Notes under the pieces: model-generated
Seen by the model: only the letters and a program-made list of their open reading frames with translations
The model's database searches: none
Told to the model about the DNA's origin: nothing
Origin: an uncultured Ectothiorhodospiraceae bacterium
GTDB taxonomy: Bacteria > Pseudomonadota > Gammaproteobacteria > Nitrococcales > Nitrococcaceae
Direction of reading: 5' to 3'
Length of the DNA stretch: 64,000 nt
Assembly (NCBI GenBank): GCA_913061005.1
Contig: CAJXSH010000009.1
Coordinates: 1 to 64,000 of the forward strand
Program-made: the position numbers and the translations under genes
In this document: positions 25,972 to 39,342 of the stretch, in pieces
Layout: every line of letters starts with the position of its first letter
How positions within the stretch are numbered: position 1 is the first letter of the stretch

Positions 25972-28900
25972 TCAGCGGCGATAATCCACTTCGACCCCGG
26001 CGTCGGGCAGCAGCTGCTCGAGCGCGGCGAGCAGCTCGGGCTCGGGGCGCACCGACCACTCATCGGCAAACCGCAGCCGGCAGGTCCCGCCGCGGCCGGC
26101 ATAGTCGACACAGACCCGGCAGTCGCCGCGCTGAAAGGGTGCCAGCGCCTGCTCGAGGCGCTGGACGAATCCGTTGCCGGCCTGCTCGGCGCCGACCCGC
26201 AGGACCAGACGACGGGCAAACGCCTGCCGGGCCCCTGCCATGTCATAGACCCGCTCGGCGGACAGGCGATAGCCGTCGCTGAACTCGTCGTAGCCCAGAT
26301 CCCCTTCGACCACCACCAGCGTGTCTTTCTCGAGCATCTGCCGATAACGCTGGAAGACATCGCCAAAAAGCACCACCTCGAGCCGGGCGGTCCGGTCATC
26401 GAGGGTGACAAACCCGAGCCGCCGCCCGCTCTGGGTGATGCGACTGCGCACCGCCACCACCAGCCCGGCGAGCACGACCCGGCGCTCGCCTTCACGACGC
26501 CCGGCGCCGCGGTCGACCCCCGCGCCCATCGCGGCATCGTTGAGGCGGCAGCTGACAAACCCGCCAAGCTCGGATTCAAAGGCGGCGATGGGGTGGCCGG
26601 TGAGATACAGCCCCAGGGTGTCCTTCTCGGCGGCCAGGCGTTCATGTTCGGGCCATTCCGTGTGCTGCACCCCGGGCTCGTTGGCCGGTGCCTCGGGCGT
26701 ATCCGCCGGGGTTGCCCCCATGCCAAAGAGGTCGTCCTGGCCCAGCTCGGTGTTGCGGCTTTGCTGCTCCGCCGCCTGCAGCGCCCGGGGCAGATCGGCC
26801 ATGGCGGTGGCCCGATTGGCGGTGATGGCATCGAGACTGCCCGAGCGGACCAGCGCCTCGAGCACCCGGCGGTTGACGCGGCGAAGATCCACCCGACGGC
26901 AGAGGTCGTAGAGATCGGCAAAATCATCACCGCGCTGGCGGGCCTCGACAATGGCCTCGACGGCGGCATACCCGACCCCCTTGACGGCACCGAGTCCGTA
27001 GACCAGCCCGCGCTCGCCGGCGGCGCGGAACATCCAGTCGGATCGGTTGATATCCGGCGGCGCGACATCCAGCCCCATGGCCCGGCACTCGTCAATCAGC
27101 GTGACCACCTTGTCGGTGTTATCCATATCCGATGACAGCACCGCCGCCATGAAGGCCGATGGGTAGTGCGCCTTGAGCCAGGCGGTCTGATACGAAAGCA
27201 AGGCATAGGCCGCCGAGTGGGACTTGTTGAACCCGTAGCCGGCGAACTTCTCCATCAGATCGAACAGCCCCTCGGCATGCTCGCGGCGAAGCCCCTGCCC
27301 CATGGCCCCTTCGAGAAAGATACTGCGCTGCTTGGCCATCTCTTCGGGCTTTTTCTTGCCCATCGCCCGCCGCAGCAGATCGGCCTCGCCCAGGCTGTAG
27401 CCGCCGACCGCCTGGGCAATCTGCATGACCTGCTCCTGATACAGGATCACCCCGTACGTGGGCTGGAGGATGGGTTTGAGCGCATCGTGGTGCAGCTCGG
27501 GCGTTGGATAGGCCACCGGTTTGCGGCCGTGTTTGCGATCGATGAAGTCCTCGACCATCCCGGACTGCAGCGGACCGGGCCGAAAGAGCGCCACCAGGGC
27601 GATGATGTCCTCGAAACTATCCGGTTGCAGCCGCCGGATGAGATCCTTCATCCCGCGCGATTCCAACTGAAACACCGCCGTGGTCTGGCATTCCTTGAGC
27701 CGCTCGAACACCGCGGCATCGTCAAGCGGGATGGTGGCGATATCCAGCGCATCCTCACCGCTCGCTCCGCGCAGCTCGTTCACCGCCTTGACCGTCCAGT
27801 CGATGATGGTCAGCGTGCGAAGGCCCAGGAAGTCGAACTTCACAAGCCCCACCGCCTCGACATCATCCTTGTCGAACTGGGTCGCGAGCCCGCCACCCCC
27901 GGGTTCGCAGTAAAGCGGGGCAAAATCGGTCAGATCCGAGGGGGCGATCACCACCCCGCCGGCGTGCTTGCCCACATTGCGCGACAACCCCTCGAGCCGA
28001 CCCGCGAGCTCGAGCAACACCGCGACGTCCTCATCCTGGGACTGCAACTCGCGAAGATCCGCCTCCTGGGCGAGCGCCTTGTCGAGCGTCATGCCCAGCT
28101 CGAAGGGGATCAGTTTGGCGATGCGATCGACATAGCCATAGCCATGCCCCAGGACCCGGCCGACGTCACGGACCACCGCCCGGGCCGCCATGGTGCCGTG
28201 GGTGGCGATCTGCGAGACCTTCTCGCGGCCGTAGTGATCGGCGACGTAATCGATGACCCGGTCGCGCTTTTCCATGCAGAAATCGACATCAAAATCCGGC
28301 ATGGACACCCGCTCGGGGTTGAGAAATCGCTCGAAGAGAAGATCGTAACGTAATGGATCCAGGTCAGTTATATCCAGCGCGTATGCCACCAGGGAACCCG
28401 CCCCCGAACCACGCCCGGGTCCCACGGGAATATCCTGATCCTTGGCCCAGCGGATGAAGTCGGCGACGATGAGAAAGTAACCGGGAAAGCCCATCTGGGT
28501 GATGACATCCAGCTCGTGATCGAGCCGCGCCCAGTAATCCGCCTCGTCCCCGCCCGGGGTACCCAACCGCTCGATCCGTTGGGCGAGTCCGGCGCGGGCC
28601 TGCTCGCGGAGCAACCCGTCGATGGTCGTCCCCGCCGGGACCGGAAAATCCGGCAGCGCATTCTGACCCAGGGTCAATGAGAGGTTGCAGCGCCGGGCAA
28701 TCGCCAGGGTATTGTCGATGGCCTCGGGGATGTCCTCGAACAGCGCCTGCATGGACTCGGCGTCTTTGAGGTACTGCGCCTCGCTGTAATCCCGGGGCCG
28801 TGACTGCTCGTGCAGGATCCGGCCCTGATGGATGCAGACCCGCGCCTCGTGGGCTTCGAAGTCATCCTTGTCGATAAACCGCACATCGTTGCTGGCCACC

Positions 28901-29484
28901 ACCGGCGAAGCGGTCTCGGCGGCCAGTGCCACCGCCGCGTGGACATGATCCTCATCGCCGGGTCGCTGGGTGCGCTGCAGCTCGAGGTAGTAGCGATCGC
29001 CAAAGCGGGATTGCCAGAACGCCAGCCGCTCGCGCGCCAGCGCCCCGTCACCGGCCACCAGGGCCTCGCCGACATCGCCGCGGGCCCCGCCAGAGAGCAC
29101 AATCAGCCCGGCATGCCACTGATCGATCCACTCGCGCTTGACGATGGGCAGGCCGGCGGCATCCTGGCCCTGTAGATAGCTGGCGGTGATCAGCCGGGTG
29201 AGATTGGCGTAGCCGGTGTCGTCCATGCACAAGAACGTGAGGTTGTGGTGGCCCTCACGACGATCATCGCCGATGCGCAGATCGGCCCCGATGATGGGCT
29301 TGACCCCGGCATCGAGCGCCGCCCGGTAGAACTTCACCATGCCAAAGAGATTGCCCTGATCGGTCACCGCCACCGCGGGCATGCCACGGGCCGCCGCCGC
29401 CTGCACCAGCGGCTTGACGCGGACCATGCCGTCGATGAGCGAGAACTCCGAATGCAGGTGTAGATGAACGAAGCCGTTGGACAT
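25972..29484 (-). CDS. dnaE: DNA polymerase III subunit alpha
   Basis: 1170 residues. Replicative polymerase of the class C family. The N-terminal PHP domain begins FVHLHLHSEFSLIDGMVRVK and continues VAVTDQGNLFGMVKFY. The palm contains GPGRGSGAGSLVAYAL, the acidic motif PDFDVDFCMEKRDRVIDY, and VGKHAGGVVIAPSDLTDFAP. Fingers and HhH regions follow (FRPGPLQSGMVEDFIDRKHG, LYQEQVMQIAQAVGGYSLGEA, AGYGFNKSHSAAYALLSYQT, DINRSDWMF, GLGAVKGVGYAAVEAIVEAR). An OB-fold lies near residues 980-1060. The gene is complete. The canonical order is rnhB-dnaE-accA; here the gnn-like island separates rnhB from dnaE. Confidence 0.98.
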   Translation of the reverse strand: MSNGFVHLHLHSEFSLIDGMVRVKPLVQAAAARGMPAVAVTDQGNLFGMVKFYRAALDAGVKPIIGADLRIGDDRREGHHNLTFLCMDDTGYANLTRLITASYLQGQDAAGLPIVKREWIDQWHAGLIVLSGGARGDVGEALVAGDGALARERLAFWQSRFGDRYYLELQRTQRPGDEDHVHAAVALAAETASPVVASNDVRFIDKDDFEAHEARVCIHQGRILHEQSRPRDYSEAQYLKDAESMQALFEDIPEAIDNTLAIARRCNLSLTLGQNALPDFPVPAGTTIDGLLREQARAGLAQRIERLGTPGGDEADYWARLDHELDVITQMGFPGYFLIVADFIRWAKDQDIPVGPGRGSGAGSLVAYALDITDLDPLRYDLLFERFLNPERVSMPDFDVDFCMEKRDRVIDYVADHYGREKVSQIATHGTMAARAVVRDVGRVLGHGYGYVDRIAKLIPFELGMTLDKALAQEADLRELQSQDEDVAVLLELAGRLEGLSRNVGKHAGGVVIAPSDLTDFAPLYCEPGGGGLATQFDKDDVEAVGLVKFDFLGLRTLTIIDWTVKAVNELRGASGEDALDIATIPLDDAAVFERLKECQTTAVFQLESRGMKDLIRRLQPDSFEDIIALVALFRPGPLQSGMVEDFIDRKHGRKPVAYPTPELHHDALKPILQPTYGVILYQEQVMQIAQAVGGYSLGEADLLRRAMGKKKPEEMAKQRSIFLEGAMGQGLRREHAEGLFDLMEKFAGYGFNKSHSAAYALLSYQTAWLKAHYPSAFMAAVLSSDMDNTDKVVTLIDECRAMGLDVAPPDINRSDWMFRAAGERGLVYGLGAVKGVGYAAVEAIVEARQRGDDFADLYDLCRRVDLRRVNRRVLEALVRSGSLDAITANRATAMADLPRALQAAEQQSRNTELGQDDLFGMGATPADTPEAPANEPGVQHTEWPEHERLAAEKDTLGLYLTGHPIAAFESELGGFVSCRLNDAAMGAGVDRGAGRREGERRVVLAGLVVAVRSRITQSGRRLGFVTLDDRTARLEVVLFGDVFQRYRQMLEKDTLVVVEGDLGYDEFSDGYRLSAERVYDMAGARQAFARRLVLRVGAEQAGNGFVQRLEQALAPFQRGDCRVCVDYAGRGGTCRLRFADEWSVRPEPELLAALEQLLPDAGVEVDYRR

Positions 29485-29584: not shown

Positions 29585-30367
29585 ATGCCGGATTGTGACA
29601 TCCACCCAACGGCCGTCATCCACCCGCAAGCCGAGCTCGAGGCGGGTGTCGAAGTCGGCGCCTATGCCGTGATCGGCGCCGATGTGCGCATCGGCGCCGG
29701 GACGATCGTCGGCCCCCACGCGGTGCTGGAAGGGCCACTCCGTCTGGGGCCGCGCAACCACCTGGCCGCCCATGTCACCCTGGGTCTGCCGCCACAGGAT
29801 GACGGCTACGCGGGTGAGGCCACCGAGCTTGTCATCGGCAGCGACAACCGGTTTCGCGAATTCTTCACCGCCCACCGGGCGAGCACCAAGGAAGACGGCG
29901 TCACGCGCATTGGCAGCCACAACCTGTTCATGGCCTACAGTCATATCGGTCACGACGGCCGCATCGGCGATCGGGTGACCATCTCCAACGCCAGCCAGTT
30001 GGCCGGCCATGTGCAGGTGGATGACCGCGCCTATATCTCGGCGGTCTGCGGTGTCCATCAGTTTGTCCGCATCGGGTCGCTGTCGATGGTCGGCGGTGGC
30101 GCGGTGGTGACACAGGATGTGGCGCCCTACTGCACGGTCACCGGCAACCGGGCGCGGCTGCGCGGCCTGAACCATCGCGGCCTGCAGCGTGCCGGCCTGG
30201 ATGCCGGCGAGCGCCGGCGCATTCGCCAGGCCTATGATCTCGTTTTTCGGCGCGGGCTGACGCTGGAACAGGCCCGACAGGCCATCGCCGACGACCCGGG
30301 CCTGGCGACCCCGTGGATCGAGGCCCTGGTGGCGTTCATGGCAGGCAGCGACCGGGGGCTCGTCCGA
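29585..30367 (+). CDS. lpxA: Second LpxA-type acyltransferase, probably for UDP-GlcNAc3N
   Basis: About 261 residues from ATG 29585; stop TGA at 30368-30370 overlaps the next start. Left-handed beta-helix repeats (IHPQAELEAGVEVGAYAVIG, ADVRIGAGTIVGPHAVLEG) fill the N-terminal 190 residues. The catalytic base of E. coli LpxA (His125) aligns with His123 in YSHIGHDGRIGD, and GHVQVDDRAYISAVCGVHQF and GLNHRGLQRAG match LpxA. In my alignment the E. coli Lys76 position (DLKYAGE) is Gly (DDGYAGE), unlike the canonical copy at 34190 (DKKFHGE). It is coupled to a GnnA/GnnB-like pair, so the likely reaction is N-acylation of UDP-GlcNAc3N in lipid A synthesis. An alternative is a WbpD-like N-acetyltransferase for surface polysaccharide, but length and motifs favour LpxA. 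Confidence 0.75.
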
Positions 30368-31314
30368 TGAGCGGTCTTCGGGTGGCTGTCATCGGGGTGG
30401 GCTACCTGGGCCGCTTCCACGCCCAGAAGTATGCCGCGCATCCCGACTGCGAGCTGGTGGCGGTGGTGGATCCGGACCCGGCCCGGCGTGAGGCGGTGGC
30501 CGCCGAGCTCGACTGCCGCGCCCTGGCCGGCACGGATGCGCTTGCCGGGCAGATCGATGCCGCGAGCATCGTCAGCCCCACCCGATTGCACCATGACCTG
30601 GCGATGCCGCTGCTGCGCGCCGGCGTGCACCTGCTCATCGAAAAGCCGATCACCACGACCCTGGCCGAGGCGGATGCGCTGATCGCCACGGCAGCGGACC
30701 ATCACTGCATCGTGCAGGTGGGCCATCTCGAGCGCTTCAACCCGGCCATGGTGGCCGCCGCCGAGCGGCTCGCCAGTCCGCTTTTCATCGAGTCGCACCG
30801 CATCGCCCCGTTCAACCCCCGGGGGGCGGATGTCAGCGTTGTCCTTGATCTGATGATCCATGACATCGACCTGATCCTCGAGCTGGTGGACGCGCCGCTT
30901 GTCCACATGGACGCCAGTGGCGCGCCGGTCATCGCCGAGGACATCGACATTGCCAACGCCCGCCTGCGCTTTGAAAACGGCTGCATCGCCAATGTGACCG
31001 CCAGCCGGGTGAGCCCCAAGGCGGAACGCCGCATGCGCATCTTCCAGCCCAATGCCTATTTTTCGCTGGATCTGCAGCATGCCCGGCTGGATATTCAGCG
31101 CCGTCAGGCCGATGCCCCGGGGCCACCCACCATGGAGCAGATCAGCCACGAACGCATCGACGCCACCGCCCGGGATGCGCTCGCCGACGAAATCCATGCC
31201 TTTGTCGATGCCATACGAACCGGCCAGTCGCCGGTGGTCAGCGCCGAGGATGGACGCCGGGCGCTGGCGGCGGCGATTGACATCGGCAAGCAACTCAACG
31301 GAAACCGGCCATGA
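30367..31314 (+). CDS. gnnA: Gfo/Idh/MocA oxidoreductase, GnnA-like (UDP-GlcNAc 3-dehydrogenase)
   Basis: 315 residues from ATG 30367 (ATGA overlap with the LpxA homologue). The N-terminal Rossmann fold begins LRVAVIGVGYLGRFHAQKYA; the family signature EKPITT is near residue 92, and GHLERFNPA and DLMIHDIDLILEL follow in the C-terminal domain. In Acidithiobacillus ferrooxidans GnnA oxidises the 3-OH of UDP-GlcNAc with NAD+, and GnnB then transaminates it. The assignment here rests on family plus the neighbouring aminotransferase and LpxA genes. WbpB-like dehydrogenases acting on UDP-GlcNAcA are the main alternative. Confidence 0.68.
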   Translation: MSGLRVAVIGVGYLGRFHAQKYAAHPDCELVAVVDPDPARREAVAAELDCRALAGTDALAGQIDAASIVSPTRLHHDLAMPLLRAGVHLLIEKPITTTLAEADALIATAADHHCIVQVGHLERFNPAMVAAAERLASPLFIESHRIAPFNPRGADVSVVLDLMIHDIDLILELVDAPLVHMDASGAPVIAEDIDIANARLRFENGCIANVTASRVSPKAERRMRIFQPNAYFSLDLQHARLDIQRRQADAPGPPTMEQISHERIDATARDALADEIHAFVDAIRTGQSPVVSAEDGRRALAAAIDIGKQLNGNRP

Positions 31315-32450
31315 ATGAGCCAAACCCCCGCCCCATCCCCATGGTGGATCTCACCGCCCAGTACCCGCTGCTGCGCGAGGCCATCGACACAGGCCTCAGC
31401 CAGGCGCTGGATGAGGCGCGCTTCATCCTCGGGCCCAACGTCCAGGCGCTGGAACAGGCCGTCGCCGACTACCTGGGCGTCCCCCATGCCGTTGCCGTTG
31501 CCTCGGGCACCGATGCCCTGCACCTGGCCCTGCTCGCCGCCGGAGTCCAGCCCGGCGACGAGGTCATCACCACGCCCTTTAGCTTTATCGCCACCGCCGA
31601 GGCCATCTGCTATGTCGGCGCCACGCCCCGGTTCGTCGATATCGACCCGCGCTCGTACAACCTCGACCCCGCTGCGGTCGAAGCGGCCATCACCGAGCGG
31701 ACCCGGGCCATCATCCCTGTCCACCTGTTTGGCCAGCCGGCGGACATGCCAGCGCTGAACGCCATCGCCGCGCGCCACGGCCTTGAGATCGTCGAAGACT
31801 GTGCACAGTCCTTTGGCGCCGATGTGGATGGCGTGATGACCGGCGCAATGGGCACGACCGGGGCCTTTAGCTTTTTCCCCAGCAAAAACCTGGGCGGTTA
31901 CGGCGACGGCGGTCTGGTGACTGCCACCAGCGAAGCCGCCGCCTCGCAGCTGCGCGCCCTTCGCAACCACGGCAGCCACCGGCGCTACTACCACGACCGG
32001 ATTGGCTACAACTCGCGGCTCGACGAGCTCCAGGCGGTGATCCTGCGGGCCAAGCTGCCGCATATCGATCAATTCAACAATGAACGCCGACGCGTGGCGC
32101 ATCGCTACAGCGAGGGACTCACTGGCGCGGCTGATCTCACCCTTCCGGCCGAAGACGGCATCGGCCGCCACGTGTACCACCAGTACACCCTGCTCTGCCG
32201 GGACAGCGACCACCGCGCCGCGCTCATGCAGCAGCTCGACGATCATCACATCGCCTCGGCGGTTTACTATCCGGTGCCACTGCATCGACAGGCGGCCTTC
32301 AACGGCACCGGCCCGGGCCAGGTTGCCATCCCGGCGGTGAAGCTGCCCGTGGCCGAAGCCACCGCCGAGCGCTGCCTCTCGCTGCCCATCTATCCAGAGC
32401 TCGCCGATGCGGATGTCGACCGCATCATCGAGGTGTTGCGCGACGCCTAA
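31311..32450 (+). CDS. gnnB: DegT/DnrJ/EryC1 sugar aminotransferase, GnnB-like
   Basis: 379 residues, ATGA overlap with the dehydrogenase. PLP-dependent sugar aminotransferase: [13 protein letters not shown] at the N-terminus, [75 protein letters not shown], and the PLP lysine in [15 protein letters not shown] (Lys192). GnnB would transfer an amino group from glutamate to the 3-keto sugar, giving UDP-GlcNAc3N. WbpE/FdtB-type enzymes are alternatives that cannot be excluded by sequence alone. Its TAA overlaps the rnhB TAG on the other strand. Confidence 0.7.
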
Positions 32451-33046
32451 CCGCCCGGCGCGTCACCGCGCAGCGCCCGGGCCACCGGCGCAAAGCTGCG
32501 TCGATGGGCGGGGCTTGGCCCCAGGCGCTGGAGCTGTTCCCGGTGGTGGGCCGATGGATAGCCCATGTTGCGGTCAAGCCCATAATCGGGATAGCGCTCG
32601 TGCAGCGCCTGCATAAGGCGATCGCGGTGGACCTTGGCAATGATCGAGGCCGCGGCAATGGCTGCCACGGCATCGTCGCCGCCCACCACCGCCGAGGCGG
32701 GATAGGGCAGCGGCGGGACATCCCGTCCGTCCACCAGCACCGACCGCGGCGCGGGGGTTAGCTGGTGCACCGCCCGCTGCATGGCCAGCAGGGTCGCGCC
32801 GCGGATATTGAGCCGATCGATTTCTTCGACCTCGGCCAGACCAATCGCCCATGCCCGGGCGCGTTGCCGGATCATCTCATCGAGCGCCCCACGACGGCGG
32901 GCGGTGAGCTTTTTCGAGTCGCGCAATCCCGGCAGCTCGGCATCGGCATCCAGAATCACCGCCGCGGCCACCACCGGACCGGCCAGAGGGCCGCGGCCGA
33001 CCTCATCCACCCCGGCGACATCCGGGTCGGGCAGGCGGCTATCCAC
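32447..33046 (-). CDS. rnhB: Ribonuclease HII
   Basis: 199 residues from GTG 33046, overlapping the lpxB stop by 8 bases. It removes ribonucleotides misincorporated into DNA and RNA from RNA-DNA hybrids. Active-site motifs: [59 protein letters not shown] and [19 protein letters not shown]. Last gene of the envelope superoperon; in most relatives dnaE would follow, but here the convergent gnn-like island does. Confidence 0.96.
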
Positions 33047-34181
33047 GCCGGCCCTCGAGCAGGGTGGCGACCACTTCGGCGGCCTGTTCGCCGGCGCCGC
33101 GACGCAAGCGCTGGTGCAGCGTATTGAACCGCTCGGCCAGCGCGCCGGCGCGTTGCGGGTCGGTCAGCAGCCGCTCCACCGCCGGGGCAATGGCCGCGGG
33201 GGTGGCCTGCTCCTGGATGAACTCGGGCATCAACATCTCGCCGGCCATCAGATTGGGCATGGCAAAGTACGGGATGCGCACCGAGCGGCGGGCCAGCACG
33301 GCGGTCAGCCGATTGACCTGATAGGCCATCACCGCCGGACAGCCGACAAGCATCGCCTCGAGCGTTGCTGTCCCCGAGGCGACCACCGCGGCATCCGCAG
33401 CGGCCAGCGCCGTCTGGGCGTCGCCTTCGATCGTGGTGCAATGCGCCTCGAGCCCGGCCCGGGCCACGGCCTGCTCGATGAGCGGTGAGAGTGCCGGCGT
33501 CGCCGCGGGAATGACCAGCCGCAGCCCCGGGTGCGAGGCGAGTAACCGCTGCCCCACGGCCAGGAATACCGGCAACAATCGATCGATTTCGCTGCGCCGA
33601 CTGCCCGGCAGGACCGCCAGGCAAAGGGGCTTTTCGGGGATGGCCAGGGCGGCCCGGGCCCCGGCGATATCCCGCGTCAACGGAATCTGATCAGCCAGCG
33701 GGTGGCCGACAAAACTCGCCGCCATCCCCCGCTCGGCGTAGAACTCGGCCTCGAAGGGGTAGATACAAAGGACATGATCGACCGCCTGTCGTATGCCCTT
33801 CAATCGCCCCTCCCGCCAGGCCCAGACCGTGGGGCTGACGTACTGAACGGTCGGTCGCCCCGTCTCGCGCAGCCGGCGGGCGAGTCCCAGATTGAAATCC
33901 GGGGCATCCACGCCGACAAAGATATCCGGTGGATCGGCCCGCCAGCGCTGCCGCAGCGCCCGTCGAATCGTAAGCAGCCGGGGCAGATGGCGGATCACCT
34001 CGACAAGGCCCATGACCGATAACGACTCGAGCGGATACAGGCTCTGCAACCCGGCCCCGGTCATGTGCCGGCCGCCGATCCCCTCAAACCGGGCGTCGGG
34101 GTAGCGGGCCTTGAGGGCGCGGATCAACCCACCGCCCAGATAATCCCCGGAGGGTTCTCCGGCGACCATTGCGATCCGCAT
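33039..34181 (-). CDS. lpxB: Lipid-A-disaccharide synthase
   Basis: 380 residues. GT19 glycosyltransferase joining UDP-2,3-diacylglucosamine to lipid X at the inner membrane. Motifs: [108 protein letters not shown] and [12 protein letters not shown]. Eight bases separate it from lpxA. If the gnn island is active, LpxB must accept acyl donors made from GlcNAc3N as well. Confidence 0.97.
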
Positions 34182-34189
34182 CGCCGGGC

Positions 34190-34966
34190 TCAGCGCACAA
34201 TGCCGCGGGGGGATGCCCGCAGAAAGGCCAGAAACTCCATGATCGCCGGATCCCCCTGCGCCTCGGCCTCGATGGTCTCGAGCGCCTCGGCAAGCCGCAG
34301 ACCGCGTTTGTACAAAAGCCGATAGGCGTTGCGCAGCCGCTGCTGGGCGGCTTGATCAAACCCCTGACGCCGCAGCCCCTCGCTGTTGGTGCCATGGGGC
34401 TCGGCCGGATCACCGGCCACCATCACCCAGGGGGGCACATCCTGACGGATGCAACTGCCCATCGCGGTAAAGCAGCCCTGGCCCAGACGGCAGAACTGGT
34501 GGACCAGGCTGAATCCACCCAGGGTGACGCGATCGCCCACCTCGACATGACCGGCCAGCGATGCCCCATTGGCAAAGACCACGCCGTTGCCCACCTGGCA
34601 GTCATGGGCGATATGCACGTAGGCCATGATCCAGTTGTCATCGCCGAGGCGCGTGGTGCCACCGCCATCCGCCGTTCCGCGGTTGATGGTCACACACTCG
34701 CGAATGGTGTTGCGCCGGCCGATCTCCAGCCGGCTTTCCTCGCCGTGGAATTTTTTATCCTGCGGCACTTCACCCACCGAGGCGAACTGAAACACCCGGG
34801 AGTCGGCCCCAATGTGGGTGGGGCCGTTGATCACCGCGTGGGGGCCGACCCAGCAACCGCTGTCGATCTGCACCCCGGCGCCGATCACCGCATACGGGCC
34901 CACCACCACGTCATCGGCCAGCCGGGCCTCCGGGTCGACCACCGCAGTGGGATCGATGCCGGTCAC
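34190..34966 (-). CDS. lpxA: Acyl-[ACP]-UDP-N-acetylglucosamine O-acyltransferase (canonical LpxA)
   Basis: 258 residues from GTG 34966 (GTGA overlap with fabZ). First step of lipid A synthesis, transferring 3-hydroxyacyl to UDP-GlcNAc. Beta-helix hexads start at once (IDPTAVVDPEARLADDVVVG). FQFASVGEVPQDKKFHGEES retains the Lys of E. coli Lys76, and MAYVHIAHDCQVGN holds the catalytic His. LAGHVEVGD, FSLVHQFCRLG and EGLRRQGF complete the picture. E. coli His99 (TIHRGT) is Asn here (TINRGT). Sits in lpxD-fabZ-lpxA-lpxB as usual, so it is the housekeeping copy. Confidence 0.96.
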   Translation of the reverse strand: MTGIDPTAVVDPEARLADDVVVGPYAVIGAGVQIDSGCWVGPHAVINGPTHIGADSRVFQFASVGEVPQDKKFHGEESRLEIGRRNTIRECVTINRGTADGGGTTRLGDDNWIMAYVHIAHDCQVGNGVVFANGASLAGHVEVGDRVTLGGFSLVHQFCRLGQGCFTAMGSCIRQDVPPWVMVAGDPAEPHGTNSEGLRRQGFDQAAQQRLRNAYRLLYKRGLRLAEALETIEAEAQGDPAIMEFLAFLRASPRGIVR

Positions 34967-35445
34967 GATGCCCTCATGGTGCAGCGAATCCCGCAGCTCA
35001 CCGCCAGTCGGCTATCCACCTCGGCCCGGGCTTTGAAAAGCCAGATACCCCGGACCACGCGATCGAGCTCGACGGCCAGCGAGACCGCATCACCGGGCAC
35101 CACCGGGGACTTGAACCGCGCCTCATCCACGCCGACCAGGTAGAAAAGCGGGGCCTCGGGTGGCAGCTCGGCGTCGGGCTCGGCCTCGCGGGTGACAAAG
35201 GCAAGCAGCCCACAGGCCTGGGCAAGCGCTTCGACCAGCAGCACCCCGGGCATGATGGCCTCGCCCGGAAAATGCCCCGGCACCCACCAGGCGCTGGCAC
35301 TGGCATTGTGCACCGCCTGCAGGGACTCGCCCGGGGTGTAGTCCACCACCCGATCGACCAGCAGGAAGGGATAGCGATGCGGCAGCCGACGCTTGATCCC
35401 GTTGAGATCGAGCGTCCGCGCCGCGGTGGTTGTCTGATCTGTCAC
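34963..35445 (-). CDS. fabZ: 3-hydroxyacyl-[ACP] dehydratase FabZ
   Basis: 160 residues from GTG 35445 (GTGA overlap with lpxD). Dehydrates 3-hydroxyacyl-ACP, competing with LpxA/LpxD for the same pool, which explains the conserved clustering. LPHRYPFLLVDRVVDYTPG, VPGHFPGEAIMPGVLLVEAL (catalytic His and Glu of the hot-dog fold), FYLVGVDEARFKSPVVPGD and ELDRVVRGIWLFKARAEVD are clear. The longer open frame upstream of the GTG is antisense to lpxD sequence. Slightly long N-terminus (about ten extra residues). Confidence 0.95.
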   Translation of the reverse strand: MTDQTTTAARTLDLNGIKRRLPHRYPFLLVDRVVDYTPGESLQAVHNASASAWWVPGHFPGEAIMPGVLLVEALAQACGLLAFVTREAEPDAELPPEAPLFYLVGVDEARFKSPVVPGDAVSLAVELDRVVRGIWLFKARAEVDSRLAVSCGIRCTMRAS

Positions 35446-36521
35446 TCTTTGTCTCCCGCCCCCAGGGTTTTTTCGAGTTGCTCGACGCGCCGGACCAGCC
35501 CCTCCAGCTGCCCGAAACGAACCGCGTTCCGGCGCCATTCGCGGTTGGGAGACGCTGGCACACCCGATGAGTAGATCCCCGGCTCGGTAATGCTGCCGGT
35601 GACCATGGCCATGCCGGTGAGCGTGGTCCCGGCGGCGATCTCCAGATGCCCGGCAATCCCCACGGCGCCGCCAATCGTACAGCACGACCCGATCACCGTG
35701 CTGCCGGATATCCCCGTGTTCGCGGCGATCACCGTATGCGCGCCAATCCGCACATTGTGGGCCACCTGTACCAGGTTATCGAGCTTGCATCCCTGCTCGA
35801 TAACCGTATCCCCCTGCGAGCCGCGGTCCACCGTGGTGTTGGCCCCGATACAGACATCATCCTCGATGATCACCGCGCCAAGCTGTGGCACCGCCTCCCA
35901 GTGGTGTTCACCCCGGGCAAAGCCGAAGCCGTCACTGCCAATCACCGCCCCGGCCTGGACATGCACCCGATCGCCCAGTCGAACCCCGGCAAGGATGGCG
36001 GCGTTGGCCTCGACTCGACAGTCGGCCCCCAGCCGGGCATCGCTGCCGATCACCACCCCCGGGCCGATCCGGCAGCCCGGCCCGATTGCCGCACCGCTTT
36101 GCACCACCACGCCCTCGCCGATCTCGGCTGCGGCATCCACCCGGGCATCGGCGGCCACCACCGCCGAGGACGCGATCCCCGGCTGCACCGCCGGCAGCGG
36201 GTTGAGCAGTCGGGCCACCCGGGCAAAGTCAAGATAGGGATTGCGCGAGTAGAGCATGCAGAAGGGATAGCCCTCGACCGCCTCCGAGGGATGCAGGATG
36301 ACCGCCGTGGCGCGGGTCTGGGCAAGCTGCCGGCGATACCGGGTATTGGCCAGAAAGCTCACCGCCCCCGGGCCGGCCTCGAGCAGCGAGGCGACCCGAT
36401 CGACCGCGGTCTCGGCCCCGCCATCGAGATCCATCCCGGTGGCCGAGGCCAGTTCGCCCAGCGTCAGTTGTCTCGGGCCGGGGGACGGCACCGGATCACT
36501 CGGCGGCGTTTTGCTGTTCAT
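35442..36521 (-). CDS. lpxD: UDP-3-O-acylglucosamine N-acyltransferase
   Basis: 359 residues if the ATG at 36521 is used (26-base overlap with skp); a GTG at 36491, 4 bases after the skp stop, gives 349 residues and starts closer to LTLGELAS as in E. coli. Neither has a clear ribosome site. Third step of lipid A synthesis. The N-terminal uridine-binding domain (AVSFLANTRYRRQLAQTRAT) is followed by a long beta-helix (VVAADARVDAAAEIGEGVVV onward). GSDGFGFARGEHHWEAVPQ, IGANTTVDRGSQGDTVIEQG, NLVQVAHNVRIGAHT (catalytic His) and YSSGVPASPNREWRRNAVRF are family marks. A C-terminal helix ends the protein. Confidence 0.95.
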   Translation of the reverse strand: MNSKTPPSDPVPSPGPRQLTLGELASATGMDLDGGAETAVDRVASLLEAGPGAVSFLANTRYRRQLAQTRATAVILHPSEAVEGYPFCMLYSRNPYLDFARVARLLNPLPAVQPGIASSAVVAADARVDAAAEIGEGVVVQSGAAIGPGCRIGPGVVIGSDARLGADCRVEANAAILAGVRLGDRVHVQAGAVIGSDGFGFARGEHHWEAVPQLGAVIIEDDVCIGANTTVDRGSQGDTVIEQGCKLDNLVQVAHNVRIGAHTVIAANTGISGSTVIGSCCTIGGAVGIAGHLEIAAGTTLTGMAMVTGSITEPGIYSSGVPASPNREWRRNAVRFGQLEGLVRRVEQLEKTLGAGDKE

Positions 36522-37047: not shown

Positions 37048-39342
37048 TTAAAAGAACGCACCAATGGTGAATTGAAAAAACTGCGTCTCATCGCCCTGCT
37101 CGTCATTCAGCGGGCGGGCCACGCTCATGGTCAGCGGGCCGATGGGCGAGTAATACACCAGCCCCAGGCCCGCTGCATAGCGAAGATCCGAAAGACTCAC
37201 ATCGCCGGGGCCCTCCGCCGCCTCGCGCTCGCGGTCCCATACCTGACCGGCGTCGACAAAGGTCGAGACCCGCAGATTGTTGCCATCGCTGTCCTCGGCA
37301 ATGGGAAAGCGCACCTCGGCCCGGCCAAGGACGCGCAGATTGCCCCCGGTGGGGTCGTCATTGTCATCCCGCGGGCCCAGCGAGTTGCTCTCATAGCCAC
37401 GCACGGTGGTGATGCCGCCGGCGTAGAAGTTCTCGTAAAACGGCAGGGTCTCGCCCTCGCCATAGGCATCGCCGTAGGAGAGCGTGCCATCGAGCACCAG
37501 CGTGAAGCGTTCGCTGAGGGCGACATACCGGGACTGCTCGTAACTCAGCCGGTAGTACTCGAGATCGGACACACCCGGCAGGGCCACCTCGAGCCGGGTC
37601 TGCTGACGGGCTCCGGCGGTGGGGAATATCGCCGTGTTGCGGGTATCCCGCGTCCACGACAGATTGGTGCGGATCACCGTGTTGTCCGGGCCGTTGCGGG
37701 TTTCAAAATCGCGCTGGATGTTGCTGGGGTTGTTGAACTCCAGCGAGACATCATCGTATTCCACATCCACGCCGACCCGGTCGTTGCTGGTCACCGGAAT
37801 GCGATAGCCGTAAGAGGCGGTCGCCGTCTGCAGCCCGTAGTCCGCCAGATCGGCCTCGTCGGCATCGCGGTCGCGGAACGACACCGCATAGCGCCGGTCG
37901 ATGCCGCTCATGGTGTAGTTGCGCTCGAGATAGGAAAGCCGATAGGTGGTATCCGAGTCATCGCTGTTGGCGACGAATTCGGCCCGGTCACCGGTGCCGA
38001 AGACATTATCCTGCTGGATGCCCAGATTGAGGATCACACCCTGGTCGGTGCCAAAGCCCACACCGGCGCGCAGACTGCCCGACAGCCGTTCGGTGGCATT
38101 GACCTCGACATCCACCTGGTCGCTGGTCCCCGGCACCCGCGGGGTGTCGATGCGCACATCACTGAAAAACCCCATCCGGCCCAGGCGCGATTCGGAGTCG
38201 CGCAGATCCTTGGTCGACAGCCAGGTGCCCTCGTACTGCCGCAACTCGGTGCGGATGACGTCATCCCGGGTGGTTTCATTGCCGCTGATCCGGATGCGGC
38301 GGACATAGACCCGCTCGGCGGGATCGACAAAAAAGGTCAGATCCACCGTCTGATCGGCCTCGCGCAGCTCCGGCAGCGGGTTGATGCGGGCAAAGGCATA
38401 ACCGCGTTCGCCGAGCTTCTCGCGCAATGCCTCGATCGTGCGGGTGATCCCGCGCTGGTTGAAGATCTCGCCCGATTCAATGGCCAGCAGCGGCCGGAGT
38501 TCGGCCTCGTCATAGATGAGCTCACCGGCCAGCTCGATATCGCCGACGTTGTACTGCACCCCTTCATCGATGTTGACCGTGACATGGATGCGCTGGCGGT
38601 CGGGGCTGATGGTCACCTGCGTGGACTCGATCGCGAAATCGGCATAACCGCGGTCGCGGTAGAACGCCCGCAGCCGCTCCAGGTCCGCCGCCAGGCGTTC
38701 GCGTGAGTACTTGTCGCGGTTCGAGAGAAATGCCCACCAGGGTGCCGGGCCCATCTCAAAGCGGTCGCGCAGCTCGTCGGTGTCGAAGGCCCGGTTGCCG
38801 ATAAAACGGATGGGCTGGACCGACGCCGGCTCACCCTCCTCGATGTCGAGCCGCAGCCCGACCCGGTTGCGCGGCAGCGGCGAGACCGTGCTCTGGACGT
38901 CGATATCGTAGTAGCCAAGGGCAAAGTACTGCTGCTCGAGCTCACGCTCGATGGTCGCGAGCAACGACCGGTCAAAGCTCTGCCCCTCACCCAGTCCGGC
39001 ACCGGCCAGCCCCTCGCGCAGACGGTCGCCGGCGATGGCGTCGTTGCCGATGAACTCGATCCGGGCAATCGCCGGGCGCTCGGTGACCTGGATGATCAGC
39101 GCATTGCCGTCCCGGAGCAGTTCGACATCATCAAAAAACCCGGTATCAAACAACGCCTCCACGGCGTCGGCGCTGTCGGTGCCATCGAGTTCGTCACCCA
39201 CATCCAGCGGCAGGTAGTTGAGCACCGTGCCCTCGGCGATCCGATCGAGCCCCCGGATACGGATTTCTTCGATGGTGAAGGCCTGGGCCGTACCCAGCAT
39301 GAAAAAGCTAAAAAGCAATGCGGCCAGTCGTGTTCGCATCAT
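37048..39342 (-). CDS. bamA: Outer-membrane protein assembly factor BamA
   Basis: 764 residues with tandem ATG codons at the start. Signal peptide ends TAQA. Five POTRA domains fill about residues 22-410 (FTIEEIRIRGLDRIAEGTVL, IARIEFIGNDAIAGDRLREG, VQPIRFIGNRAFDTDELRDR, QYNVGDIELAGELIYDE, YVRRIRISGNETTRDDVIR). The C-terminal 16-stranded barrel contains the loop 6 VRGYESNSLGPRD motif (equivalent to VRGFQS…GP) and ends in Phe-Phe. It inserts beta-barrel proteins into the outer membrane. Located between rseP and skp as in most proteobacteria. Confidence 0.98.
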   Translation of the reverse strand: MMRTRLAALLFSFFMLGTAQAFTIEEIRIRGLDRIAEGTVLNYLPLDVGDELDGTDSADAVEALFDTGFFDDVELLRDGNALIIQVTERPAIARIEFIGNDAIAGDRLREGLAGAGLGEGQSFDRSLLATIERELEQQYFALGYYDIDVQSTVSPLPRNRVGLRLDIEEGEPASVQPIRFIGNRAFDTDELRDRFEMGPAPWWAFLSNRDKYSRERLAADLERLRAFYRDRGYADFAIESTQVTISPDRQRIHVTVNIDEGVQYNVGDIELAGELIYDEAELRPLLAIESGEIFNQRGITRTIEALREKLGERGYAFARINPLPELREADQTVDLTFFVDPAERVYVRRIRISGNETTRDDVIRTELRQYEGTWLSTKDLRDSESRLGRMGFFSDVRIDTPRVPGTSDQVDVEVNATERLSGSLRAGVGFGTDQGVILNLGIQQDNVFGTGDRAEFVANSDDSDTTYRLSYLERNYTMSGIDRRYAVSFRDRDADEADLADYGLQTATASYGYRIPVTSNDRVGVDVEYDDVSLEFNNPSNIQRDFETRNGPDNTVIRTNLSWTRDTRNTAIFPTAGARQQTRLEVALPGVSDLEYYRLSYEQSRYVALSERFTLVLDGTLSYGDAYGEGETLPFYENFYAGGITTVRGYESNSLGPRDDNDDPTGGNLRVLGRAEVRFPIAEDSDGNNLRVSTFVDAGQVWDREREAAEGPGDVSLSDLRYAAGLGLVYYSPIGPLTMSVARPLNDEQGDETQFFQFTIGAFF

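Follow-up and report, generated by a model that had tools for sequence, protein, structure and literature searches.

The stretch of DNA analyzed here (the window; 64,000 nucleotides of contig CAJXSH010000009.1) belongs to a Spiribacter draft genome (1.65 Mb, 84.7% complete) and carries a plus-strand cassette, lpxA2-gnnA-gnnB, that probably provides a second first step of lipid A synthesis. The gene lpxA2 (29585-30370) encodes an LpxA-type acyltransferase of 261 amino acids, predicted to be a 3-N-acyltransferase of UDP-2-acetamido-3-amino-2,3-dideoxyglucose (UDP-GlcNAc3N). gnnA (30367-31314) encodes a Gfo/Idh/MocA dehydrogenase of 315 amino acids, a predicted 3-dehydrogenase of UDP-N-acetylglucosamine (UDP-GlcNAc), and gnnB (31311-32450) encodes a DegT/DnrJ/EryC1/StrS aminotransferase of 379 amino acids, a predicted UDP-3-keto-GlcNAc transaminase. 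Successive genes overlap by ATGA (30367-30370 and 31311-31314). Coordinates and profile matches agree with the first-pass annotation, which had described three overlapping plus-strand genes of these families. No further gene belongs to the cassette, which adjoins the canonical lpx cluster. On its left is dnaE (25972-29484), on the minus strand and divergent from lpxA2; on its right is a minus-strand row of rnhB (32447-33046), lpxB (33039-34181), lpxA1 (34190-34966), fabZ (34963-35450; start approximate), lpxD (35442-36510; start approximate, the listed open reading frame [ORF] beginning further upstream) and, at the upstream end of the cluster, bamA (37048-39342). A complete lpxA had been reported in this row. 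lpxA1 is indeed intact between lpxB and fabZ/lpxD, and its product is predicted to be a canonical C10-type 3-O-acyltransferase. One copy of lpxB was found in the source genome and is presumably common to both routes.

Both acyltransferases are full LpxA proteins. LpxA2 (P0001) and LpxA1 (P0004) scored 320 and 359 bits against the NCBIfam LpxA profile (cut-off 226) and 297 and 332 bits against TIGR01852 (cut-off 231), both contain the C-terminal LpxA domain PF13720, and they are 42% identical. In the source genome, LpxA matches fall at these two places, with a third, weak match of 23 bits besides. GnnA (P0002) matches GFO_IDH_MocA, and its nearest solved structure is 7bvj (E 1e-68), the next solved relative being at 1.7e-19; the profile for archaeal UDP-GlcNAc 3-dehydrogenase, NF040723, gave 184 bits, under its cut-off of 450. 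GnnB (P0003) matches DegT_DnrJ_EryC1, with 7b0d (2.9e-97) and WbpE (1.1e-87) among its hits.

The resemblance of GnnB to WbpE raises the question of whether the cassette instead makes a diamino sugar for O-antigen or glycoprotein, in the manner of WbpB/E/D, with LpxA2 as the N-acetyltransferase. LpxA2 also matched TIGR03570 (NeuD/PglB/VioB), at 103.7 bits, under the cut-off of 160.8. WbpD-type sugar N-acetyltransferases, however, are short hexapeptide acetyltransferases that lack the LpxA C-terminal domain, and LpxA2 passes both LpxA equivalog cut-offs, has PF13720 and retains equivalents of H122, H125, H144 and H160. It did not group with the WbpD type, the outcome that the first-pass annotation had named as damaging to its proposal, and assignment to that type was rejected. 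Action on UDP-N-acetylglucosaminuronic acid, another outcome named there, could be addressed through the dehydrogenase, which is GnnA-like, but not through GnnB, which does not discriminate. Given also that GnnA is nearest to 7bvj, that the site adjoins the lpx cluster and that the cassette comprises just three genes, we consider an O-antigen or glycoprotein role highly improbable.

The two LpxA proteins differ at positions of the sugar/UDP pocket. Window LpxA2 has H123, G74, K102, L192, R198 and G171 at the positions of Escherichia coli H125 (catalytic), K76, Q104, P194, E200 and G173. In E. coli numbering, which is used from here on, window LpxA1 has K76, W116, P194, E200 and M173, with D at 104. 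Residues were then counted in 22 of the 27 two-LpxA genomes of the order. All 22 LpxA2 proteins keep residues equivalent to H122, H125, H144, H160 and Q161 and have K104, L194 and G173; K76 is replaced in every one (G in 14, S in 5, T in 2, A in 1), as is E200 (R in 20, K in 1, T in 1). The LpxA1 proteins of the same genomes all have K76, W116, P194 and E200, none has K104, and position 173 is M in 19 and F in 3. A canonical pocket, taken as K76 plus E200, was found in 0 of 22 LpxA2 but 22 of 22 LpxA1 proteins. In Pseudomonas aeruginosa LpxA, the K76 equivalent (Lys72) binds the GlcNAc 6-OH and the E200 equivalent (Glu196) contacts uracil (PMC7072397). At these positions Leptospira interrogans LpxA has Gly71 and Val195 (PMC7072397, Table 1); one passage of that paper has Phe72 where the table has Gly71, and the Protein Data Bank letters read Gly then Phe at the K76 equivalent. 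The L. interrogans protein also has a Lys near 104, within a TKED motif that is present in window LpxA2. Campylobacter jejuni LpxA has Ser76 and Lys104, and Helicobacter pylori LpxA keeps Lys76.

Position 173 serves as a ruler for the acyl chain: with G173M, E. coli LpxA uses C10 in place of C14 chains, and M169G changes P. aeruginosa LpxA the opposite way (PMC6408518). LpxA1, with M173, is therefore predicted to be of the C10 type and LpxA2, with G173, of the C14 type, although other pocket residues can modify chain length. The same difference would fit a reading in which LpxA2 is a chain-length paralogue only, performing C14 O-acylation of UDP-GlcNAc, while GnnA and GnnB serve another end. 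Psychrobacter and Segatella have been discussed as having two LpxA homologues, in passages that do not mention GlcN3N (2,3-diamino-2,3-dideoxyglucose). Yet the sugar- and UDP-pocket positions differ as well as the ruler, and none of the order's 26 GnnA-less genomes yielded a second LpxA. These observations, with the gene order described below, make a mere chain-length paralogue unlikely.

The second LpxA and GnnA occur together. Of 23 genomes in the family, 10 encode GnnA, and two LpxA are present in these 10 and in no others. Within the order, GnnA was found in 28 of 54 genomes, 27 of which have at least two LpxA places (in draft G030, some of these are pieces broken at contig ends); the 26 GnnA-less genomes have one LpxA in 25 cases and none in one draft. 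Kinship among genomes was not removed from these counts or from those for the class. LpxA is directly upstream of gnnA in 27 of the 28 GnnA loci and gnnB directly downstream in 26, an adjacency indicating that the arrangement is not due to chance. The exceptions are G041 and G053. G041 has a lone gnnA, with no LpxA or gnnB in the surrounding 14 kb, and one LpxA, which has K76. By eye, this gnnA (L211:6625-7554; L212) lies beside an ORF resembling cyclopropane-fatty-acid synthase, and the sole LpxA has V200. In G053 (L214), lpxA2-gnnA is present and gnnB was not matched in the 10.8 kb viewed; it may be located in another part of the genome. A second LpxB accompanying the cassette was also considered and rejected: of 54 genomes, 50 yielded one LpxB, drafts G030 and G036 two, and G025 and G052 none.

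Phylogeny separates the two proteins. The tree held 98 LpxA rows, 95 of the 157 LpxA sequences collected plus 3 references, and LpxA searches at named loci covered 45 of 80 loci. The 22 gnn-linked LpxA2 proteins of the order form one group (support 87 in the Shimodaira-Hasegawa-like approximate likelihood ratio test, SH-aLRT), which falls outside a canonical clade of 51 rows (SH-aLRT 98) containing all 22 LpxA1 proteins and all 10 included GnnA-less LpxA proteins of the order. LpxA proteins directly upstream of gnnA in other genomes behaved similarly, 16 of 17 being outside the canonical clade and one (L254) inside; of the 17, all but L143 were checked for a further LpxA in the genome, and L126, L138 and L154 had one. 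In all of those 16, Q104 and E200 are replaced and G173 is present; L194 is present in 14. A duplication of lpxA1 within the order was rejected, since a single clade of the order's LpxA1, LpxA2 and GnnA-less LpxA gave p 0.0034 in the approximately unbiased test (p-AU), for a group chosen after the tree had been seen. When LpxA2 was held together with the 16 gnnA-linked proteins (L254 was excluded because it lies inside the canonical clade), the tree scored 14.3 log units above a quick free search (p-AU 0.736). Of the phylogenetic expectations raised by the first-pass annotation, the separation of LpxA2 from LpxA1 is thus borne out; a common group of LpxA2 and the other gnnA-linked LpxA proteins is compatible with the sequences, not proven.

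The cassette is optional within Spiribacter. It is missing from 5 of 14 genomes of the genus, among them S. salinus M19-40 (G013) and strain UAH-SP71 (G009). Both are saltern isolates without GnnA or a further LpxA; about 90 bases separate the dnaE match from the rnhB match in S. salinus. S. salilacus C176 (L080) bears the cassette. Lipid A of S. salinus M19-40T is built on a glucosamine (GlcN) disaccharide that bears 10:0(3-OH) at positions 3 and 3'; its amide-linked chains, 14:0(3-OH) for the reducing unit and 14:0(3-oxo) for the nonreducing unit, survived ammonium hydroxide (PMC5923411). The 10:0(3-OH) at 3 and 3' is what would be expected from LpxA1 alone with M173 (L034). LpxA1 thus seems enough in this species, which suggests that the cassette supplements LpxA1 without taking its place. 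In the tree, LpxA1 proteins of cassette-less Spiribacter genomes are interspersed among those of carriers, a pattern that suggests repeated losses.

The absence of the cassette from those 5 genomes, and the apparent sufficiency of LpxA1 in S. salinus, would also fit a cassette that is silent or decaying in its carriers, with LpxA1 alone making lipid A. The state of the genes argues otherwise: lpxA2 and gnnA are open and free of stops in all 9 genus carriers and in G008, and the active-site histidines are kept in 9 of those 10 LpxA2 proteins, that is, in all that were aligned (G018 was not). gnnB could be followed over its whole length in the longer loci only (the window, L080, L232 and L234). 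We give little credence to a silent cassette. The distribution also bears on the suggestion in the first-pass annotation that amide linkage suits an alkaline or saline niche. That argument was dropped, because the cassette is missing from the two saltern Spiribacter isolates named above, and a GnnA match is present in 125 of 377 genomes sampled from the class.

Gene content, synteny, co-occurrence, phylogeny and residues, as observed here, point to a model for the substrates, the chain lengths and the final lipid A. The lpxA2-gnnA-gnnB genes would form a self-contained, optional cassette. GnnA would oxidize the 3-OH of UDP-GlcNAc, GnnB would transaminate the product to UDP-GlcNAc3N, and LpxA2 would add a C14-type (R)-3-hydroxyacyl chain to the 3-amine. 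In parallel, LpxA1 would add a C10-type chain to the 3-OH of UDP-GlcNAc. LpxC (assumed), LpxD and the single LpxB would handle both acylated products, giving lipid A backbones of GlcN and GlcN3N with ester-C10 and amide-C14 at positions 3 and 3'. Because both products would share the later enzymes, including LpxB, mixed or hybrid backbones are expected. We think it very likely that parallel ester-C10 and amide-C14 first steps feed one LpxB in this way, and, as a prediction from sequence, the proposal that 3-N-acyl GlcN3N precursors have a route of their own while the canonical LpxA stays intact is supported.

A refinement of this model is a fixed hybrid disaccharide, GlcN3N-GlcN, in place of a random mixture. 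Capnocytophaga canimorsus resembles the window in having two lpxA genes (lpxA and lpxA') with gnnA and gnnB. Its lipid A backbone, characterized by mass spectrometry and nuclear magnetic resonance, is more than 95% hybrid GlcN3N-GlcN (PMC3342949), so a later enzyme may impose order, and 50 of the 54 genomes in our order have a single LpxB through which both products would pass. On the other hand, carriers and noncarriers coexist in one genus, so a pure GlcN disaccharide must suit closely related downstream enzymes. We regard a fixed hybrid as a real but somewhat doubtful possibility. The systems also differ in layout: lpxA, lpxA', lpxC and lpxD are in one operon in C. canimorsus (PMC3342949), whereas the window combines lpxA2 with gnnA-gnnB as an optional cassette.

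The tie between an extra LpxA and GnnA extends across the class. In the 377-genome sample (GnnA match at E <= 1e-50), 43 genomes have at least two LpxA, and 41 of these are GnnA positive; the frequencies are 41 of 125 GnnA-positive versus 2 of 252 GnnA-negative genomes (Fisher 6.6e-20). The two GnnA-less genomes are G231 and G422. Residues were examined in a nonrandom sample of best-scoring rows: among genomes with one LpxA, 35 of 84 GnnA-bearing and 55 of 250 GnnA-less (the groups with at most one LpxA), and also one LpxA each from 18 of 41 GnnA-bearing genomes with at least two. Among the one-LpxA genomes, Q104 is kept in 44 of 55 GnnA-less versus 1 of 35 GnnA-bearing, E200 in 45 of 55 versus 10 of 35, and K76 in 55 of 55 versus 18 of 35. 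Per family, K76 is mostly lost in 8 of 19 GnnA-bearing versus 0 of 36 GnnA-less families. We offer only tentatively, and as a reading that may well be wrong, that across the Gammaproteobacteria two LpxA proteins split the work by sugar (3-OH or 3-NH2) and chain length, that LpxA proteins acting on UDP-GlcNAc3N can be recognized by the replacement of Q104 and E200, and often of K76 too, and that Spiribacter carriers tune the ratio of ester-C10 to amide-C14. Such a division of labor would follow from the near-exclusive occurrence of a second LpxA with GnnA.

Several points weigh against these interpretations. The 7bvj record is labeled "Oxidoreductase, NAD-binding", and it is we who take it to be GnnA of Acidithiobacillus ferrooxidans. 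The sequence of GnnB does not by itself decide its substrate. The comparison of pockets leans on the LpxA proteins of L. interrogans, whose lipid A contains GlcN3N, and of A. ferrooxidans, both of which are said to be selective for UDP-GlcNAc3N. K76 is kept in 13 of the 16 gnnA-linked LpxA proteins outside the canonical clade (11 of the Geobacter/Desulfuromonas type and both f26 rows), being absent only in the three from f145, and, as noted above, it persists in about half of the GnnA-bearing one-LpxA genomes. Two GnnA-less g15 genomes (L075 and L213) break the residue association, their LpxA having H74, G76 and V200, and comparison of independent pairs on the class tree gave just 3 pairs on supported branches. 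Finally, the canonical clade includes nine LpxA proteins of GnnA-bearing genomes whose genes do not adjoin gnnA, those of Ectothiorhodospira mobilis and Thioalkalivibrio sulfidiphilus among them. At least six of the nine are from one-LpxA genomes; L083, L086 and L145 are from genomes with a second LpxA. Together with L254, they indicate that GnnA can occur with a canonical-clade LpxA where no LpxA2 is present.

The GnnA/GnnB pathway of A. ferrooxidans uses the same two enzyme types as the cassette. In three genomes of f145, presumably the Acidithiobacillus family given the match to 7bvj, GnnA is 64 to 76% identical to 7bvj and gnnA directly follows lpxA. Their LpxA proteins share G76, K104, L194, R200 and G173 with window LpxA2. 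The difference is that these three genomes have one LpxA, in an lpxD-lpxA-gnnA-gnnB row, whereas in the window the gnn-linked LpxA is extra to the canonical one. The LpxA proteins of C. jejuni and L. interrogans likewise lack K76 and have Lys at or beside 104, but these are one-LpxA organisms; the C. jejuni backbone is reportedly a GlcN/GlcN3N hybrid. GnnAB, LpxA and dual LpxA are thus already known. As far as the open-access literature goes, a weak basis for a negative, three things appear to be new: the joined lpxA2-gnnA-gnnB beside a full canonical set, the presence or absence of the cassette within a genus in which the lipid A of one cassette-less species is solved, and the tie of an extra LpxA to GnnA across the class.

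Ester versus amide linkage at positions 3 and 3' alters the alkaline lability of lipid A, and C. jejuni without gnnA/gnnB reportedly shows raised Toll-like receptor 4 activation and peptide sensitivity (PMC8036547). In Spiribacter, lipid A chemistry seems to be governed by one optional three-gene cassette, and the genus offers a natural presence/absence pair. The model predicts backbone and chain length in a testable way and points to candidate sugar-selectivity residues in LpxA, an antibiotic target.

Other gnn layouts were seen. E. mobilis and T. sulfidiphilus have rnhB on the minus strand, gnnA-gnnB-lpxB on the plus strand and one LpxA. Near the same site, L131, L149, L145 and L086 have rnhB(-), gnnA-gnnB-lpxB(+) and lpxA1(-); the lpxB products, which share only 35 to 39% identity with Spiribacter LpxB, are the sole ones found at these loci, which suggests that the gnn island brings its own lpxB, replacing the canonical one. 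Genomes of the Geobacter type carry a single lpxD-lpxA-gnnA-gnnB-lpxB row, and some of them encode another, divergent LpxA at a different place. Besides their first LpxA, Methylococcales, Geobacter-type and other GnnA-bearing genomes encode a divergent LpxA-like protein that is 37 to 44% identical to the nearer window LpxA (L215-L219, L222-L224, L226, L229-L231 and L280). In L280 its gene comes after gnnA-gnnB; at the other loci gnnA was not found in the 7 to 9 kb viewed. K76 is absent in all 9 divergent second LpxA proteins ("X2") examined. In G035, a gap of about 3.4 kb separates lpxB from rnhB (L208:5915-9339), a feature absent from L201, L206, L209, L232 and L234.

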